Of a stretch of DNA of 40,508 nt, positions 7,243-13,313 are shown one piece after another (the stretch's first letter is position 1; every line of letters begins with the position of its first letter). Below the pieces are notes generated by a model that searched no databases, had not been told where the DNA came from, and saw only the letters and a program-made list of their open reading frames with translations. The stretch is from Alphaproteobacteria bacterium. Lineage in GTDB: Bacteria > Pseudomonadota > Alphaproteobacteria > 16-39-46 > JABJFC01. The DNA is taken from the NCBI GenBank assembly GCA_018662925.1, contig JABJFC010000020.1:1-40508 (forward strand), read 5' to 3'. Position numbers and translations under genes: made by a program.

Positions 7243-8502
7243 ATGATTCCTTCTAAAATCTCTCATGCCCACTGGCAAGAATCACACGAATTGAAGCAAA
7301 TAATTGACGTTTTAATCGATAAATCCGGACCAGCACGGTTTGTTGGAGGATGTGTTCGCGATACGTTGCTTGGAATTTCTGTAACCGATACTGATATTGC
7401 AACCCCCCTTGACCCTGAAATGGTTATGGAACGACTCAAGGGAACTGATTTCAGAGTGGTCCCCACTGGTCTCAAACACGGGACCGTTAGCGTATATTTC
7501 CATGGAGAGTGCTGCGAAATAACAACCCTGAGACGAGATGTAGAAACCTTTGGTCGCCATGCCCGCGTTGAATTTACCGATGATTGGCTCCAAGATGCCA
7601 AACGAAGGGATTTTACAATCAATGCGCTATATGCGGACTTTGACGGAAATATTTTTGATCCCATCGGGGGACTTCAAGATCTTAAGGCCGGTAGAATCCG
7701 TTTTGTGGGGGATCCAGAAAAGCGTTTGGAAGAAGACATTCTTCGCCTCTTACGACTTTTTCGTTTCCAGGCCTATTATGGTAAAAGCCCCCTGAACCCA
7801 GAGACCCTCCGTATATGTGAAAAGTATACGGCAAAACTTGAAATGCTTTCTGGAGAAAGAATCGCGAAGGAAATCTTTCGCACCCTTAAAGCGCCAAATC
7901 CAGCGCCTATTTTTCAGCTTATGTTGACCCACAAAATCCTAGATCATATTTTCAATCTGCGCCCTGATACGACGCTATTAGAATCTCTCTGCAAAATCGA
8001 AAGAAAACTTGTCCCCTCACAAGAGGATGCTTTACGGCGTTTTGCCTCTATAATTATGGACAGAAACAGCGCCAAGGCGGCTTCCGATCGATTAAAGCTC
8101 TCCAACCGGGACAAGAGGAGACTCTTTGCCATGTCCTCTCCTTACCATGACTATCCCGAAAATTTTGATCCCAAACAGGAAAGATACTTTATGTATCAAG
8201 TTAGTGCTCAATACTATCAAGATCTCATGATTCTCCACGCCGCCACTGATGTGTTAGAAAGGAAAAAATCTCTAAAGGATGCCATTGCCCTTTGTCAAAA
8301 ACGCCTTGATGCCTCTCAGAAATGGGAAACAGAGCTTGTATTTCCCCTCAAAGGGCAGGACCTCCTTGACGCGGGCATGAAACCTGGCCCTAAAATCAAA
8401 AGAGTCCTAAATCTCCTTGAAGAGTATTGGCAAGAACACGATTTCAAGCCAAGTAAACAAGAATGTTTGGAGCATTTTAAGAAGATGAGTGTAGAAAGTT
8501 AA
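7243..8502 (+). CDS. cca: CCA tRNA nucleotidyltransferase (class II polymerase-beta fold)
   Basis: A 419-residue enzyme that adds or repairs the 3' CCA of tRNAs. The nucleotidyltransferase head has FVGGCVRDTLLG and the metal-binding DTDIAT. Further on come the RRDFTINALYAD motif and the ribose/nucleotide-selecting region with ILRLLRLFRFQAYYG. The C-terminal half is the helical tRNA-binding body. Poly(A) polymerase I shares this fold. I prefer CCA-adding enzyme because of length and the lack of a basic PcnB-like C-terminal extension. The gene starts four bases after the RMD1-like gene. The only tRNA in this window already encodes CCA, so a repair role is sufficient for it. Confidence 0.9.
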   Translation: MIPSKISHAHWQESHELKQIIDVLIDKSGPARFVGGCVRDTLLGISVTDTDIATPLDPEMVMERLKGTDFRVVPTGLKHGTVSVYFHGECCEITTLRRDVETFGRHARVEFTDDWLQDAKRRDFTINALYADFDGNIFDPIGGLQDLKAGRIRFVGDPEKRLEEDILRLLRLFRFQAYYGKSPLNPETLRICEKYTAKLEMLSGERIAKEIFRTLKAPNPAPIFQLMLTHKILDHIFNLRPDTTLLESLCKIERKLVPSQEDALRRFASIIMDRNSAKAASDRLKLSNRDKRRLFAMSSPYHDYPENFDPKQERYFMYQVSAQYYQDLMILHAATDVLERKKSLKDAIALCQKRLDASQKWETELVFPLKGQDLLDAGMKPGPKIKRVLNLLEEYWQEHDFKPSKQECLEHFKKMSVES

Positions 8503-8657
8503 CGATATACTACTTCCTAAAATTCCTATTTTTGAAATCGAGAATCTAAAGTTAAACTGTCCTCAAAGGCGCCTGGACTGCATATCTTTGTTTCCTAGCT
8601 GGCATAACCTGCTCGATGTGTGAAAAGCCATATTTCAGCCATGGTTAGGATTTTTTG
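8503..8657. other. Intergenic stretch between cca and the sRNA-like array
   Basis: No ORF with coding character is visible in this first part of the 839-base gap between cca and oligopeptidase B. It contains short pyrimidine-rich stretches and ends in a T6 run just before the A-tract that closes the first sRNA-like repeat. I see no obvious plus-strand terminator for cca. Confidence 0.5.
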
Positions 8658-8658
8658 C

Positions 8659-8762
8659 AAAAAAAAGCCGGGTAATAAAACCCGGCTAAGTTTACAGGGA
8701 GGCTATTACGTCTGGGAGACGTAACGGGCTATTTAAAGCCCTACCAGACTTTGCGTCTGGAT
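8659..8762 (-). ncRNA. Candidate sRNA, copy 1 of three tandem copies
   Basis: Read on the minus strand, this is a compact string of four hairpins. Hairpin D is CCAGAC/GTCTGG (8744-8760). Hairpin C is GGGCT/AGCCC (8726-8741). Hairpin B has an 8-pair stem around loop CCC (8706-8724). After a linker containing GCCTCCCTGT (8694-8703) comes hairpin A, an 8-pair GC-rich stem (8666-8687), running into eight U (8659-8666), a textbook rho-independent terminator. A promoter-like TTGACT/CATATA pair lies just upstream. The linker and loop carry CCUCCC and CUCCC, which resemble the anti-Shine-Dalgarno end of 16S rRNA and the CU-rich motifs of alphaproteobacterial AbcR/alpha-r sRNAs. That comparison is by pattern only. 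Confidence 0.7.
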
Positions 8763-8769
8763 ATTGATA

Positions 8770-8798
8770 TATATGACATACTATATCGATATAGTCAA
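8770..8798 (-). promoter_or_regulatory. Candidate promoter of sRNA copy 1
   Basis: On the minus strand TTGACT (8793-8798) and CATATA (8770-8775) are separated by 17 bases, close to a sigma-70 consensus. Predicted initiation falls near 8762, immediately before the first hairpin of copy 1. This agreement between promoter, hairpins and terminator is the best support that copy 1 is an independent transcript. Confidence 0.6.
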
Positions 8799-8918
8799 CA
8801 TAAAAATCGGGACATCAGGTTATGCATTTTTTATATATCTAGATAGCTTTTCATTAAAAACTTAAAAAGCCTTTGAACACACTGAGAATATTGTATAGAG
8901 TCATTCCCTCGTAGATTT

Positions 8919-9021
8919 AAAAAAAACCGGGCACAAGGCCCGGTCGAAGTTTTACAGGGAGGCTTTACGTCTGGGAGACGTAAAGGGCTACTTAAAGCCC
9001 GTCGAACTCGTAAGCTCGACA
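8919..9021 (-). ncRNA. Candidate sRNA, copy 2 of three tandem copies
   Basis: This is the second copy, with the same four-hairpin order and the same overall length (about 102 nt from U-tract to first stem). The segment 8952-9000 is nearly identical to 8691-8741 of copy 1. It includes the linker GCCTCCCTGT and the CCC-loop hairpin, here extended to ten pairs (8963-8985). The terminator stem differs in sequence (CCGGGC with GCCCGG, 8926-8944) yet still pairs and ends in eight U. The outer hairpin D has an unrelated sequence (GTCGA with TCGAC, 9001-9020) but still pairs. Keeping pairing while changing sequence points to selection on RNA structure. A promoter as clear as that of copy 1 is not visible. 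Confidence 0.65.
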
Positions 9022-9157
9022 TAAATTTACTCTAAGCAAAATTCCGTCCTATTTCTACTATAATTTAGCCATATGAGGTTTGCGTTTTGCGCATAGCTTA
9101 TTTGGCAAGTCATCTTAGATTTAAGTCTTTGATAGAAAATGACAATATTATCTATGC

Positions 9158-9252
9158 AAAAAAACGAGCACGAAATCGGTCTAGATCTAACTGGAAGGCT
9201 TTATCTCTGGGAGACCTATGGGGCCCATTAAAGCCTCTCGAACAATGCTCGG
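9158..9252 (-). ncRNA. Diverged third copy of the sRNA-like repeat
   Basis: This copy aligns over its whole length with copies 1 and 2 but is shorter by a few bases and partly decayed. It keeps seven U at the end, the TCTCCCAGA loop region, the TTTAA segment of hairpin C, and an outer hairpin (CGAGC with GTTCG). The linker CCTCCC has become CCTTCC, and the terminator and B stems have uncompensated mismatches. TATAAT on the minus strand at 9274-9279 could act as a -10 box, without a good -35. It may be an inactive relic or a specialised paralogue; the sequence favours a relic. Confidence 0.45.
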
Positions 9253-9341
9253 AATTAGTTGATTTTAGGGCATATTATATCAAAAATGGCAAAGGTAGTT
9301 CCACAAACTTTAATCCCAGGCTTTCGTAGTGCACTGATAGC

Positions 9342-11399
9342 CTAAGAGGACTGAGTTTGGTTAAATACCGATAAAACAAAGCAAAATTCTCTTGCCTTCT
9401 CTTGAAGGCTCTTAAATCTGCCCGAAAAACCCCCGTGGCCACTTTCCATATTCGTATCCAATAAAACCAGATTTCCGCTTGTATTCTGTTCTCTAAGCTT
9501 TGCTACCCACTTGGAAGGCTCCCAGTAAGTGACTCTAGGATCATTAAGTCCCGATAATGCCAGTATATTTGGGTATCCCTTAGGCTGGATATTGTCATAG
9601 GGTGAATAGGAGAGCATATACTCAAAGTAATTTTTCTTGTTCGGATTCCCCCATTCGTCATACTCAAGAGTCGTAAGGGGAAGGGTGTCGTCAAGCATTG
9701 TATTAACCATATCAACAAAGGGAACGCCCGCTATGGCTGCTTTAAACAATTCCGGCCTCATATTAAGGGTCGCCCCAATAAGCAAGCCTCCAGCGCTTCT
9801 CCCAGCAATAGCGATATTTCCTTTGGCCGTATACTTTTCCTTAATAAGATGTTCCGCCGTGGCGATGAAATCATAAAAAGTATTTTTTTTCTTTAAAAAC
9901 TTTCCATCTTCATACCATTGCCTTCCCAATTCGGATCCGCCCCTGATATGGGCAACGGCATATATGAATCCCCGATCAATGAGGCTAAAAATATCACTTT
10001 CAAACCAATCAGATAGGGTTATGCCATAGGATCCATAGCCATATAGATAGCACGGAGCCGTTCCATCTCGTTTCGTTCCCTTGCGATATAGAAGAGAAAC
10101 GGGCACCTTGACCCCATCATGACTTGTCACAAAAATGTGCTCACTTACGTAATGATCAGACGAAAACGTAGGAATTACCTTTCTTTTCAAGGACTCAAGC
10201 TTTCTCTGTTCCACGTGATACGCATATGTCGTGGGCGGTGTCAAAAGCGATGAATAGGAAATCCGATACACGCACGACTCATAAGTTGGATTAATGTCCG
10301 GCCCAACTGCATATGAGGAATCCGGAAATTGGACGTAATGCTCTTTGCCATTGCCAAACTCAATAACCCTCACCCTTGGAATTCCCTTTTGTCGTTCAAA
10401 GACAATCAGATACTCTTTGAATACATCCAAACCCCTTAGATAAACCTCACGAGACTCTCGTAAAAACTCTTCCCAATCTCCCTCATGCAAATTTTTAATG
10501 GGAACCTTCATCACTTTAAAATTCAACGCATTTTCATTGGTTAAGATATAAAAATAGTCACCCCAATGATAAATACTGTACTCGACACCCTGACTCCTTT
10601 TTTTAACCGTTTGAAGAGTCGGTGATACTTCCTGAGTTTCAAAAAAAGAAATTTCGCTAGTGATTGCCCCATGCAACTCTAGAAAAATGAATCTTTCGCT
10701 CCTTGATTTGGAGAGACCCAGGAAAAACTCTTCATCCTTTTCTTGATAGATAAGGGCATCTGAATCAACATTCCCCCCAAGAACATGCTGGAAAGCACAA
10801 TCCGGACGATGGAGTTCATTTAACTTGGTATAGTAAACAATTTCGTCCGATACCCATTCAAATGAAGTAGAGGCATCTCTAATCACATCGGTCAAATCCT
10901 CGCCAGACTCTAAATCCTTGAAATATATAGTATAATGCTCATCTCCCGAGGTATCTAAAGAATAGGCTAAAATTCTGTGGTTCGGACTCATCTCAAACAC
11001 GCCTACTTTTACATATTCGTGCTTTTTCCCTATTGTATTAACATCCAAGAGTATCTCTTCCTGTGCCTCTAGAGAGCCTCTCTTGCGGCAATAAATTGTA
11101 TACTCTTTTCCCGCCTCTTGACGCGTATAATAAAAATAGTCCCCCCACTTAAAGGGTGCCGATTCATCATCTTCCTTGATACGGCCCTTCATTTCCTGGA
11201 AAAGCTTTTTTTCTAGTTCTTTATGAGAACTTAAAACTTCCTCAGTATAGTCATTTTCCTTTTTCAAATGTTCGATGACCTCTGGATTATCCCTGTTTCT
11301 GAACCAGAAATAATCATCTAAGAGTTTGTGTTCATGTATCTTTGTCTCATGAGGTTCCTTCCTCATCACAGGAGGTTGTAGCATTTTCTTGAAAGTCAT
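9342..11399 (-). CDS. ptrB: Oligopeptidase B (S9A serine peptidase)
   Basis: A 685-residue S9A peptidase of normal length. It cleaves short peptides after Lys or Arg in the cytoplasm, helping peptide turnover. Residues 1 to about 70 and from about 410 form the catalytic alpha/beta-hydrolase domain around a seven-bladed propeller that excludes large proteins. The N-terminal HETKIHEHKLLDDYFWFRNR is typical. The triad is Ser535 in GRSAGG, Asp620 in LNDPRV and His655 in ESGHGGFSGR. The FLYGYGSYG-type oxyanion motif appears as CYLYGYGSYG. There is no signal peptide. It stands alone, convergent with the sRNA-like array and downstream of a coiled-coil protein gene on the same strand. Confidence 0.95.
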   Translation of the reverse strand: MTFKKMLQPPVMRKEPHETKIHEHKLLDDYFWFRNRDNPEVIEHLKKENDYTEEVLSSHKELEKKLFQEMKGRIKEDDESAPFKWGDYFYYTRQEAGKEYTIYCRKRGSLEAQEEILLDVNTIGKKHEYVKVGVFEMSPNHRILAYSLDTSGDEHYTIYFKDLESGEDLTDVIRDASTSFEWVSDEIVYYTKLNELHRPDCAFQHVLGGNVDSDALIYQEKDEEFFLGLSKSRSERFIFLELHGAITSEISFFETQEVSPTLQTVKKRSQGVEYSIYHWGDYFYILTNENALNFKVMKVPIKNLHEGDWEEFLRESREVYLRGLDVFKEYLIVFERQKGIPRVRVIEFGNGKEHYVQFPDSSYAVGPDINPTYESCVYRISYSSLLTPPTTYAYHVEQRKLESLKRKVIPTFSSDHYVSEHIFVTSHDGVKVPVSLLYRKGTKRDGTAPCYLYGYGSYGITLSDWFESDIFSLIDRGFIYAVAHIRGGSELGRQWYEDGKFLKKKNTFYDFIATAEHLIKEKYTAKGNIAIAGRSAGGLLIGATLNMRPELFKAAIAGVPFVDMVNTMLDDTLPLTTLEYDEWGNPNKKNYFEYMLSYSPYDNIQPKGYPNILALSGLNDPRVTYWEPSKWVAKLREQNTSGNLVLLDTNMESGHGGFSGRFKSLQEKAREFCFVLSVFNQTQSS

Positions 11400-11476: not shown

Positions 11477-13096
11477 CTAACTGCGTCCACGCCGAATTCT
11501 CTCTTGATGAACATGATGTCGATTCTCATTGTCGTTTGAACGTGTTTCCCTAATTTCAGTACTTCTAAGAAATTCTATGTCTTCATCTGTAAACAGCAAT
11601 TCCTTTTTCGCCTTGCGATTTTCTTTCCTTATTTTCGACATTTTCTTGAGTTGACCCTGAATCAACTTACGTTTTTTAGAAACTGCGCTTTTGAAAATCT
11701 GCTTTTGCTGAGCAATTTTTTTCCTCTCCATATTTTTTCTTTTTGCTATATGTTTTTTATCTGCTTTCAACTTCGATGAAATCTTTTGCCTCATAATTTT
11801 CTTTTGATTCGCTAGCTTTTTTGCTGCAGCCTTCTTGTTCTTTGCAAGTCGAACTTTGTCTGTCTTTTTCTCCTTGGCAAGCTGCCTACTCGCCTTCTTG
11901 GCCTCCCGCGCTATCCGTTTTTTATCTGCTTTCTGCTCCCTGGAAAGCTTTCTTTCGTCAGCTTTCTCTGTCGCTATCCGTTTTTCATCAGCTCTGGTCT
12001 TCTTAGCTAGTTTTTTTGCTGCTGCTTTTTCTTTGGCTATGCGCTTTTCCTCAACCTTTTTCTCTTGGGCAAGTTTTCTTGCCGCTGCTTTTTCTCTCGC
12101 TATACGATTTTTTTCTGCCTTTTTCTCTTGGGCCAATTTTCTCGCTGCCGCTTTTTTCTCCTTAGCTATGCGATTTTTTTCCGCCTTCTTCTCCTGAGCA
12201 AGCTTTCTAGCCGCCGCTTTCTTCTCCTTGGCTAGGCGCTGTTCTTCTGCTTTTTTCTCTCTAGAAAGTTTTCTGGCTTCCTCCCTCTTTTCCTTGGCTA
12301 TGCGCTGTTCTTCTACCTTTATCTGTTTAGCCAGTTTTCTTTCAGCTTCTTTTGCCTCTCTTGCTAAGCGCTTTTCCGCCGCTTTCTCCTTGGAAATTTT
12401 CTTTTCTAATTCTCTTTTCACTTCTACTAAACGATTTTCTTCAGCACGTTTCTCCTGAGCAAGCTTCTGCGATGCTTCATCTTTTTCTTGAGCCAAACGG
12501 TCGACTTCTGCTTGCTCTCTAGCAAGTTTCTCCTCTGCCTCTTTCTTCTGTCTGGACAGACTCTCTATTTTTTCTTGTTCCTGGGCAAGCTTCTCCTGAG
12601 CTTTTTCCTGCTCTTCAGCAAGTTTATCAGTTTCGCTTTTATCTGTATCACTCTCATCCTTCTTCTTTTCAACAATCTGCTTTTCAGTTGCTTTCCCGGA
12701 AACGAGCCCAGAAGGCTGAATGCTAATTTTCTGCCCTTTTTCCTCAAATGTTTCATTTCTTCGAGAATAGCTTGTCACATTCTTCAATTTTTCTTTTTCT
12801 TTCAGTGAGTCCCACGCACTTTCCGAAATATAGGTGACGGCAGCATCCAACTCACCAGCATCCAAATCTCCTGCATTTCCGATATAACGGATTTGCTTTA
12901 CGCCTTGAGCTATAAAGGGTCTTATTTGCCCTTTGTTACCGGGGTTCTGCAAACTGCCAATTCCTGGAACTTTCTTTTGAGAGTGTACATAAGCAGTCTT
13001 CTCGTTAATCCCTGTTTCAGCAACAGAAACATGAGACAAAAACAGGACAATGCCTAAGCATAGTCCCAAACTGACCAACCACCTATAAATGCTCAT
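11477..13096 (-). CDS. Exported Lys/Glu/Ala-rich repetitive coiled-coil protein
   Basis: I place the start at the ATG at 13096, giving 539 residues, because a normal Sec signal peptide begins there (MSIYRWLVSLGLCLGIVLFL, cut after SVA near residue 26) with AGGGG seven bases upstream. The frame extends 16 codons further left without such support. After about 110 unique residues comes a stretch of roughly 330 residues made almost wholly of Lys, Glu, Ala, Arg, Leu and Ile. It has imperfect 11- and 22-residue repeats of the form KLAQEKKAEKNRIAKEKKAA, predicting one long charged helix or coiled coil. The C-terminus ends in a basic segment with HHVHQERIRRGRS. TolA-like and other envelope-spanning helices look similar, but no TolA domain is seen. 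The function is unknown. Confidence 0.72.
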   Translation of the reverse strand: MSIYRWLVSLGLCLGIVLFLSHVSVAETGINEKTAYVHSQKKVPGIGSLQNPGNKGQIRPFIAQGVKQIRYIGNAGDLDAGELDAAVTYISESAWDSLKEKEKLKNVTSYSRRNETFEEKGQKISIQPSGLVSGKATEKQIVEKKKDESDTDKSETDKLAEEQEKAQEKLAQEQEKIESLSRQKKEAEEKLAREQAEVDRLAQEKDEASQKLAQEKRAEENRLVEVKRELEKKISKEKAAEKRLAREAKEAERKLAKQIKVEEQRIAKEKREEARKLSREKKAEEQRLAKEKKAAARKLAQEKKAEKNRIAKEKKAAARKLAQEKKAEKNRIAREKAAARKLAQEKKVEEKRIAKEKAAAKKLAKKTRADEKRIATEKADERKLSREQKADKKRIAREAKKASRQLAKEKKTDKVRLAKNKKAAAKKLANQKKIMRQKISSKLKADKKHIAKRKNMERKKIAQQKQIFKSAVSKKRKLIQGQLKKMSKIRKENRKAKKELLFTDEDIEFLRSTEIRETRSNDNENRHHVHQERIRRGRS

Positions 13097-13313
13097 CTCC
13101 CCGCCCCTAAATTGTTCATACTCTCCTATTGTATCAGAATTCAAAATGAAAATGAAAATATATATGTTTTTTTCTTGCTAAATATTTTTAAAGAATATAT
13201 TCTGAGGAGCTTTATTATTTAGAGGCTAAAATGATCCGATAATCTTTCTGTCACTCTGGCTATCACTTTGATGAGGCCATTTTGATCTTCTAAAAAAACA
13301 TTGATTAAATTCG

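Follow-up and report, generated by a model that had tools for sequence, protein, structure and literature searches.

A tandem array of predicted sRNA genes related to the lsrB-linked sRNA family of Alphaproteobacteria

The array and its three copies

The window analyzed here is a 40,508-nucleotide stretch of contig JABJFC010000020.1 from an alphaproteobacterial genome (1.83 Mb in 91 contigs, 97% complete), and it contains an array of predicted small RNA (sRNA) genes at positions 8659 to 9252. The array is situated in the 3′ flank of a prolyl oligopeptidase (S9) gene, its upstream neighbor on the same minus strand (9342..11399; Pfam PF02897 and PF00326). On the other side lies a convergent plus-strand gene for a nucleotidyltransferase of the poly(A) polymerase/CCA-adding type (7243..8502; PF01743 and PF12627), which we do not regard as belonging to the sRNA system. 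The three head-to-tail minus-strand copies of the original prediction are present, with start-to-start spacings of 259 and 236 nt and AT-rich spacers of approximately 130 to 150 nt between them. Copies 1 and 3 are each 72 to 75% identical to the middle copy over 67 nt. Also beside the peptidase gene is a 555-amino-acid open reading frame (ORF) on the minus strand (11477 to 13144) with no Pfam match.

RNA folding of the minus strand gave copies 1 and 2 exactly the order of elements that had been claimed for the whole array: hairpin 1, a GGGCU/AGCCC hairpin, an ACGUCU-CCC-AGACGU hairpin, a CCUCCC linker, and a terminator with 7 to 8 U. In both copies, the hairpin with the CCC loop reads ACGUCUCCCAGACGU and the single-stranded linker GCCUCCCUG. 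The predicted folds are unusually stable (−43.2 kcal/mol and z of −6.3 for copy 1; −43.1 kcal/mol and z of −6.2 for copy 2), and 0 of 200 shuffled sequences folded as well. Copy 1 (8659..8765, minus strand; 5′ end near 8765, U-tract at 8665 to 8659) consists of hairpin 1 (CCAGAC/GUCUGG, 8744..8760), hairpin 2 (GGGCU/AGCCC, 8726..8741), hairpin 3 with the CCC loop (GUCUCCCAGAC) and its AbcR M1-like motif CUCCCA (8705..8725), the single-stranded linker carrying the SorX/SmelC671-like motif and ACUU (8688..8704), and an intrinsic terminator with its U-tract (8659..8687). Copy 2 (8918..9024, minus strand) repeats this plan with hairpin 1 at 9001..9020, hairpin 2 (GGGCU/AGCCC) at 8985..9000, hairpin 3 with its CCC loop at 8964..8984, a linker with CCUCCCUG at 8946..8963, and a terminator with a U-tract at 8918..8945. 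On the minus strand, a terminator scan of the window picked up the terminators belonging to copies 1 and 2 but missed that of copy 3.

Copy 3 (approximately 9155..9252, minus strand) is diverged and is not the equal member of the array that it was taken to be. It retains GUCUCCCAGA, a GCCUUCC linker in which CCUUCC stands in place of CCUCCC, and the U-tract. The most stable fold predicted for it, however, is a different one, with the separate hairpins largely broken, and is unexceptional (−25.4 kcal/mol; z of −1.1; 28 of 200 shuffles as good). This altered fold counts against the interpretation that we favor below. A covariance model built only from the genome's own copies (R1) scored copies 1, 2, and 3 at 88.6, 90.3, and 72.2 bits (the last over 9157 to 9236), all three being training copies; with the retrained model R3 described below, copy 1 had an E value of 6e-22.

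Promoter evidence is weak throughout. The sequence TTGACT-17-CATATA noted upstream of copy 1 is indeed there (8770..8798, read from 8798 to 8770 on the minus strand), but its 8 of 12 consensus matches are usual for shuffled sequence and a promoter scan of the window did not list it, so it remains a candidate. None of the promoters of the genome's six copies was better than chance, which likewise counts against the favored interpretation.

Three of these six copies form the array, and the others are dispersed singly on contigs C63, C36, and C29. The three dispersed copies all have the loop and linker motifs, which are intact in 5 of the 6 copies overall.

Conservation of the family and its lsrB locus

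At an E value of ≤0.01, R1, which was trained on the six copies alone, matched 27 of 57 other genomes, mostly with a single homologue in each. R3, which was retrained on 76 sequences and whose matches include some training loci, identified the family in 192 of 385 sampled alphaproteobacterial genomes, or about half. By our own count of the table, 123 genomes carry one copy, 44 two, 19 three, 4 four, and 1 five; six copies are the maximum seen and occur only in the source genome, although the stricter filters of this search can miss weak copies. The suggestion that the family is specific to this lineage is thus correct only for its amplification. At least 119 contigs from named genomes contain an exact 27-mer of the core, and among the matches listed, nearly all are of the Rhodospirillales type or from Reyranella, Thalassospira, Kiloniella, Azospirillum, Acetobacteraceae, and Caedibacter/Caedimonas; the homologues in named genomes are alphaproteobacterial. 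In another genome (G170; L254:996-1569), we observed a tandem triple of related sRNAs spaced 298 and 229 nt apart, with different hairpins and the same ACCUCCCUGUUAGACUUGCC-terminator module.

The search of related genomes with the covariance models showed that the stems and the CCUCCC segment are kept, so the array withstood the refuting condition that the original prediction had set for homologues. In an alignment of the 76 sequences, which was fitted to the covariance model and therefore favors the structure, base-pair cells were paired in 97.5% of cases, compared to 78.5% after shuffling and 32 to 49% in slid controls. Two-sided changes occurred at 11 of 15 pairs, and none of 500 shuffles reached any of these measures. 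The terminator sequence varies freely with compensation, and hairpin 2, which was left out of the model, compensates independently (GGGUC/GACCC, AGGAUC/GAUCCU, GGGUUC/GAACCC, GGGACC/GGUCCC, UCCGGC/GCCGGA, and GGGCU/AGCCC). Because the stems vary in sequence, a MAFFT alignment (A5) and the model derived from it (R2) retained almost no structure, and the covariance model-guided alignment was used instead. What is near-invariant among the 76 homologues is hairpin 3 with its loop UCUCCCAGA (CUCCCAG) and the linker motif. Three genomes of the same order as the source genome (G001 to G003; L028, L036, and L037) have an lsrB-linked copy that carries CUUUUUAG in place of the CUCCCA loop and keeps the linker motif of copy 2; since the hairpin 3 loop motif was lost there, it is not universally needed, a further point against the favored interpretation.

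The genomic position of the homologues ties the family to lsrB, which the sRNA normally follows as the next feature. Among the 103 sites with enough upstream sequence to be testable, lsrB lies on the same strand no more than 500 nt upstream of the sRNA at 80 (median, 216 nt) and within 2.5 kb at 9 more, with trxB also in view at 77. The gene order in Agrobacterium tumefaciens is trxB-vtlR-abcR1-abcR2 (PMC7486931), and lsrB is located next to abcR1/2 in Sinorhizobium meliloti (PMC8844928). By genome, lsrB was present in 25 of 27 sRNA-positive genomes and in 6 of 30 sRNA-negative ones (Fisher P = 2e-8), and the later model R3 also matched in 5 of the 6 lsrB-positive genomes first scored as sRNA negative.

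The source genome departs from this arrangement. Its best lsrB-like proteins show only 42% and 40% identity and are encoded elsewhere, and neither lsrB nor an sRNA follows its trxB gene. Judged from these comparisons, the partner locus has been lost in the source genome, while the family multiplied to six copies. The RNA also occurs apart from lsrB in, among others, Caedibacter and Caedimonas. A Reyranella genome has such an unlinked copy (L101:3995-4021) beside an ORF that resembles an integrase when read by eye.

Relation to known sRNA families

At Rfam gathering thresholds, no sRNA match was found in the window or in 18 named loci, and 20 relatives yielded a single SorX match (L028, same order, 48.3 bits). 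Under relaxed thresholds, SorX (RF02784) was clearly the best Rfam match to the array, with scores of 43.6 bits (E = 3.2e-9) for copy 2 and 36.9 bits for copy 1, neither of which reaches the gathering score of 46.6 bits. The suhB model (RF00519) matched weakly (26.8 bits, E = 0.0025), below its required score of 41. The ar15 model (RF02345) gave no match in the window up to an E value of 10 and matched 0 of 58 genomes, including the source genome, at E ≤ 0.01, but control genomes were equally silent.

The original prediction held that the resemblance to AbcR was one of pattern only. The relation goes further than that, given that in other genomes the homologues are positioned at the locus of AbcR, trxB-lsrB-sRNA (PMC7486931). 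AbcR1 and AbcR2 (alpha-r15; Sinorhizobium, Agrobacterium, and Brucella) share with the family this trxB-lsrB/vtlR-sRNA locus, a tandem or multicopy organization, a length of approximately 100 to 120 nt, CUCCCA in a hairpin loop, a second C-rich motif between hairpins, and a terminator. AbcR sRNAs are known for the Hfq-dependent repression of ABC-transporter mRNAs. Their motif M1, CUCCCA, is located in the loop of the first hairpin, and GUUCCC (M2) lies between the hairpins (PMC5461406); target repression is exerted by M1 as well as by the second, interhairpin motif (PMC5461406, PMC8844928). In copies 1 and 2, M1 is exposed in the loop of hairpin 3, whereas GUUCCC is replaced by the SorX/SmelC671-type linker and there is one hairpin more than in AbcR. 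The array is also flanked by the S9 peptidase and poly(A) polymerase genes rather than being positioned downstream of lsrB/vtlR. With M1 present and GUUCCC replaced, we file the array as a new group variant and not as a member of AbcR or SorX.

The likeness to SorX of Rhodobacter sphaeroides lies in the 3′ half, which has a hairpin, an (A/G)CCUCCCUGU linker, and a GC-rich terminator; the SorX copies examined have no CUCCCA loop, unlike copies 1 and 2. One genome (G025) holds two tandem SorX copies above threshold (L228:1377 and 1530) as well as a SorX-model match 120 nt after lsrB (L075:2530). The presence of both in this genome suggests that SorX is paralogous to the lsrB-linked RNA and arose by duplication of that RNA.

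Two further families share the C-rich single-stranded element. The alpha-r8 sRNAs (MmgR and SisA-D; RF00519) are multicopy and have a single-stranded CUCCCU core before the terminator, and the core of SisA-D, UUUCCUCCCU, belongs to genes that are sometimes adjacent (PMC12559287); copy 2 has AAAGCCUCCCU instead of this 10-mer. SmelC671 has a long single-stranded domain with the conserved motif CUCCCUGU between variable hairpins, of which the 3′ one is the terminator (PMC3927594). Compared by motif only, the SmelC671 motif occurs in copies 1 and 2 and, as CUCCCUGA, in the copies on C63, C36, and C29. SmelC671 is described only for Rhizobiales, and its S. meliloti locus is far from AbcR and lsrB (PMC7143759).

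The proposed likeness to CcsR failed. CcsR of Rhodobacter and NfeR1/SmelA075 (alpha-r14) are also multicopy sRNAs with anti-Shine-Dalgarno loops, but they carry CCUCCUCCC in each hairpin loop, in a different hairpin arrangement, and this loop motif is absent from positions 8650 to 9260.

The array is best read as a new branch of the anti-Shine-Dalgarno sRNAs of the AbcR/SorX/ar8/SmelC671 type, one that is amplified and unlinked from lsrB. By position and sequence, it connects the separately named families AbcR, SorX, SmelC671, and probably alpha-r8, and it reveals an sRNA that is widely conserved in Alphaproteobacteria but escapes the Rfam thresholds. A limited literature search yielded no paper that names SorX and AbcR together or describes AbcR in Rhodospirillales. 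In species with AbcR, the circuit governs the uptake of nutrients and the association with a host. Given this role and the occurrence of the family in about half of the genomes sampled, its recognition is of practical use for annotation, and a genome that multiplied the RNA while losing the regulator lsrB and phages that bear the RNA are cases to test.

Proposed function, alternatives, and mobility

Folding, covariance, and the six copies bear out the core of the original prediction, namely, multicopy sRNA genes in which an unpaired loop and an unpaired linker each present a motif of the anti-Shine-Dalgarno type. We consider it probable that the array represents three tandem, trans-acting sRNA genes of approximately 100 nt, two intact looking and one decaying or diverged, which are divergent members of an ancient lsrB/vtlR-linked alphaproteobacterial family, have lost the lsrB link, belong to a set of six copies, and would act via Hfq to block translation. 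Common descent with the family, the conserved structure and motifs, the copy number, and the loss of the lsrB link follow from the sequence comparisons, whereas transcription, Hfq binding, translational repression, and targets are inferred for the array by analogy. An Hfq gene is present in the source genome. The RNA would bind Hfq via its terminator and U-tail and expose two C-rich motifs, CUCCCA in the hairpin 3 loop and the motif in the single-stranded linker. These motifs would pair with G-rich ribosome-binding sites, and the pairing would block translation and promote decay of the target mRNAs.

Target prediction, which had been proposed as a check, returned a few candidate leaders but no clear enrichment of the expected patterns: genome-wide, TCTGGGAG before ATG had 13 matches versus 7 in the reversed control, and CAGGGAGG had 6 versus 6. 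The longest match is the leader of an LdtR-like MarR regulator gene (C52:12960-12979; L304), where the sequence GUCUGGGAGACGU mirrors hairpin 3 over the ribosome site, with perfect complementarity along 13 nt; the LdtR assignment is below the NCBIfam cutoff. This complement is absent in 28 homologues from other genomes, so that the leader was rejected as a conserved target and is at most a lineage-specific one. Besides this gene, the plausible matches to the first pattern are mainly a pair of neighboring genes whose products are putatively exported (C21:47362 and 48966; L299 and L300); both genes have the leader GTCTGGGAGAATAATAATG, a complement of the sRNA loop. The LdtR-like leader and the two exported-protein leaders with GUCUGGGAGA are the best candidate targets. 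That candidates are few and the longest match is unconserved counts against the favored interpretation.

A fair rival, though an unlikely one, is that the array is the processed tail of the prolyl oligopeptidase transcript, cut by RNase E into units in the manner of SorX. All copies lie on the strand of the peptidase gene after its stop codon, copy 3 starting approximately 90 nt past it, and no copy has an above-chance promoter. SorX, whose model is the best Rfam match, is itself cut from the 3′ untranslated region of an OmpR-like gene (PMC6238624). However, copy 1 is behind the strong terminator of copy 2, which read-through would have to pass, AT-rich spacers separate the copies, and the upstream genes vary among other members of the family. 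Slightly less probable still is that the array is what remains of a repeat expansion and that no more than one of its copies is functional. The lost hairpins of copy 3 and the lack of lsrB at the ancestral trxB site fit such decay, as does the case of S. meliloti NfeR1, in which only one of six copies is detectably expressed (PMC7143759), but copies 1 and 2 retain all stems despite many sequence differences between them, and only one of the six copies lacks intact loop and linker motifs. A plus-strand element, such as a G-rich repeat bound by proteins or a cluster of transcription terminators serving the convergent poly(A) polymerase gene, is largely refuted and very improbable: the plus strand folds well too (z of −5.4 for copy 1 and −4.0 for copy 2), as expected for hairpins, but the U-tracts, the terminator geometry, and the same-strand order with lsrB in homologues all fix the minus strand.

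The family of trans-acting sRNAs favored here extends to viral sequences. Its core was found in seven IMG/VR viral contigs, all with R3 scores of 44 to 77 bits; two of these contigs, L291 and L292, are short and possibly of host origin. The other five scored 44 to 65 bits, and most of these copies are beside phage genes: approximately 500 nt before the small and large terminase genes (L289:2910-3000 and L294:6909-6999), near a large terminase gene (L290:9878-9954), near an HNH endonuclease gene (L293:1367-1464), and near a gene that reads by eye as methyltransferase-like (L296:1765-1856). A pattern of the array's own type in viral contig L295 was rejected as a chance match inside a coding gene. 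In the host, two of the six copies (those on C29 and C36) are close to mobile-element genes; the dispersed copies had no match among plasmid and phage records. Tentatively, an ancestral LsrB-linked sRNA may have predated the split between AbcR, SorX, and related families and become a mobile module, such that phages, beside their terminase genes, and integrative elements carry copies that would redirect host translation, and this mobility could have helped to build the six-copy set after the loss of lsrB.

Two observations concern the surroundings of the dispersed copies. The C29 copy (L286, C29:15000-21427) adjoins a tyrosine integrase gene and an AbiEi/AbiEii toxin-antitoxin pair, with a DnaA_N-domain protein encoded further off, and it may lie inside the element, which the end of the contig interrupts. 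The C36 copy (L285, on a 3.6-kb contig) is located approximately 230 nt behind a Toprim/DUF7146 primase-like gene.
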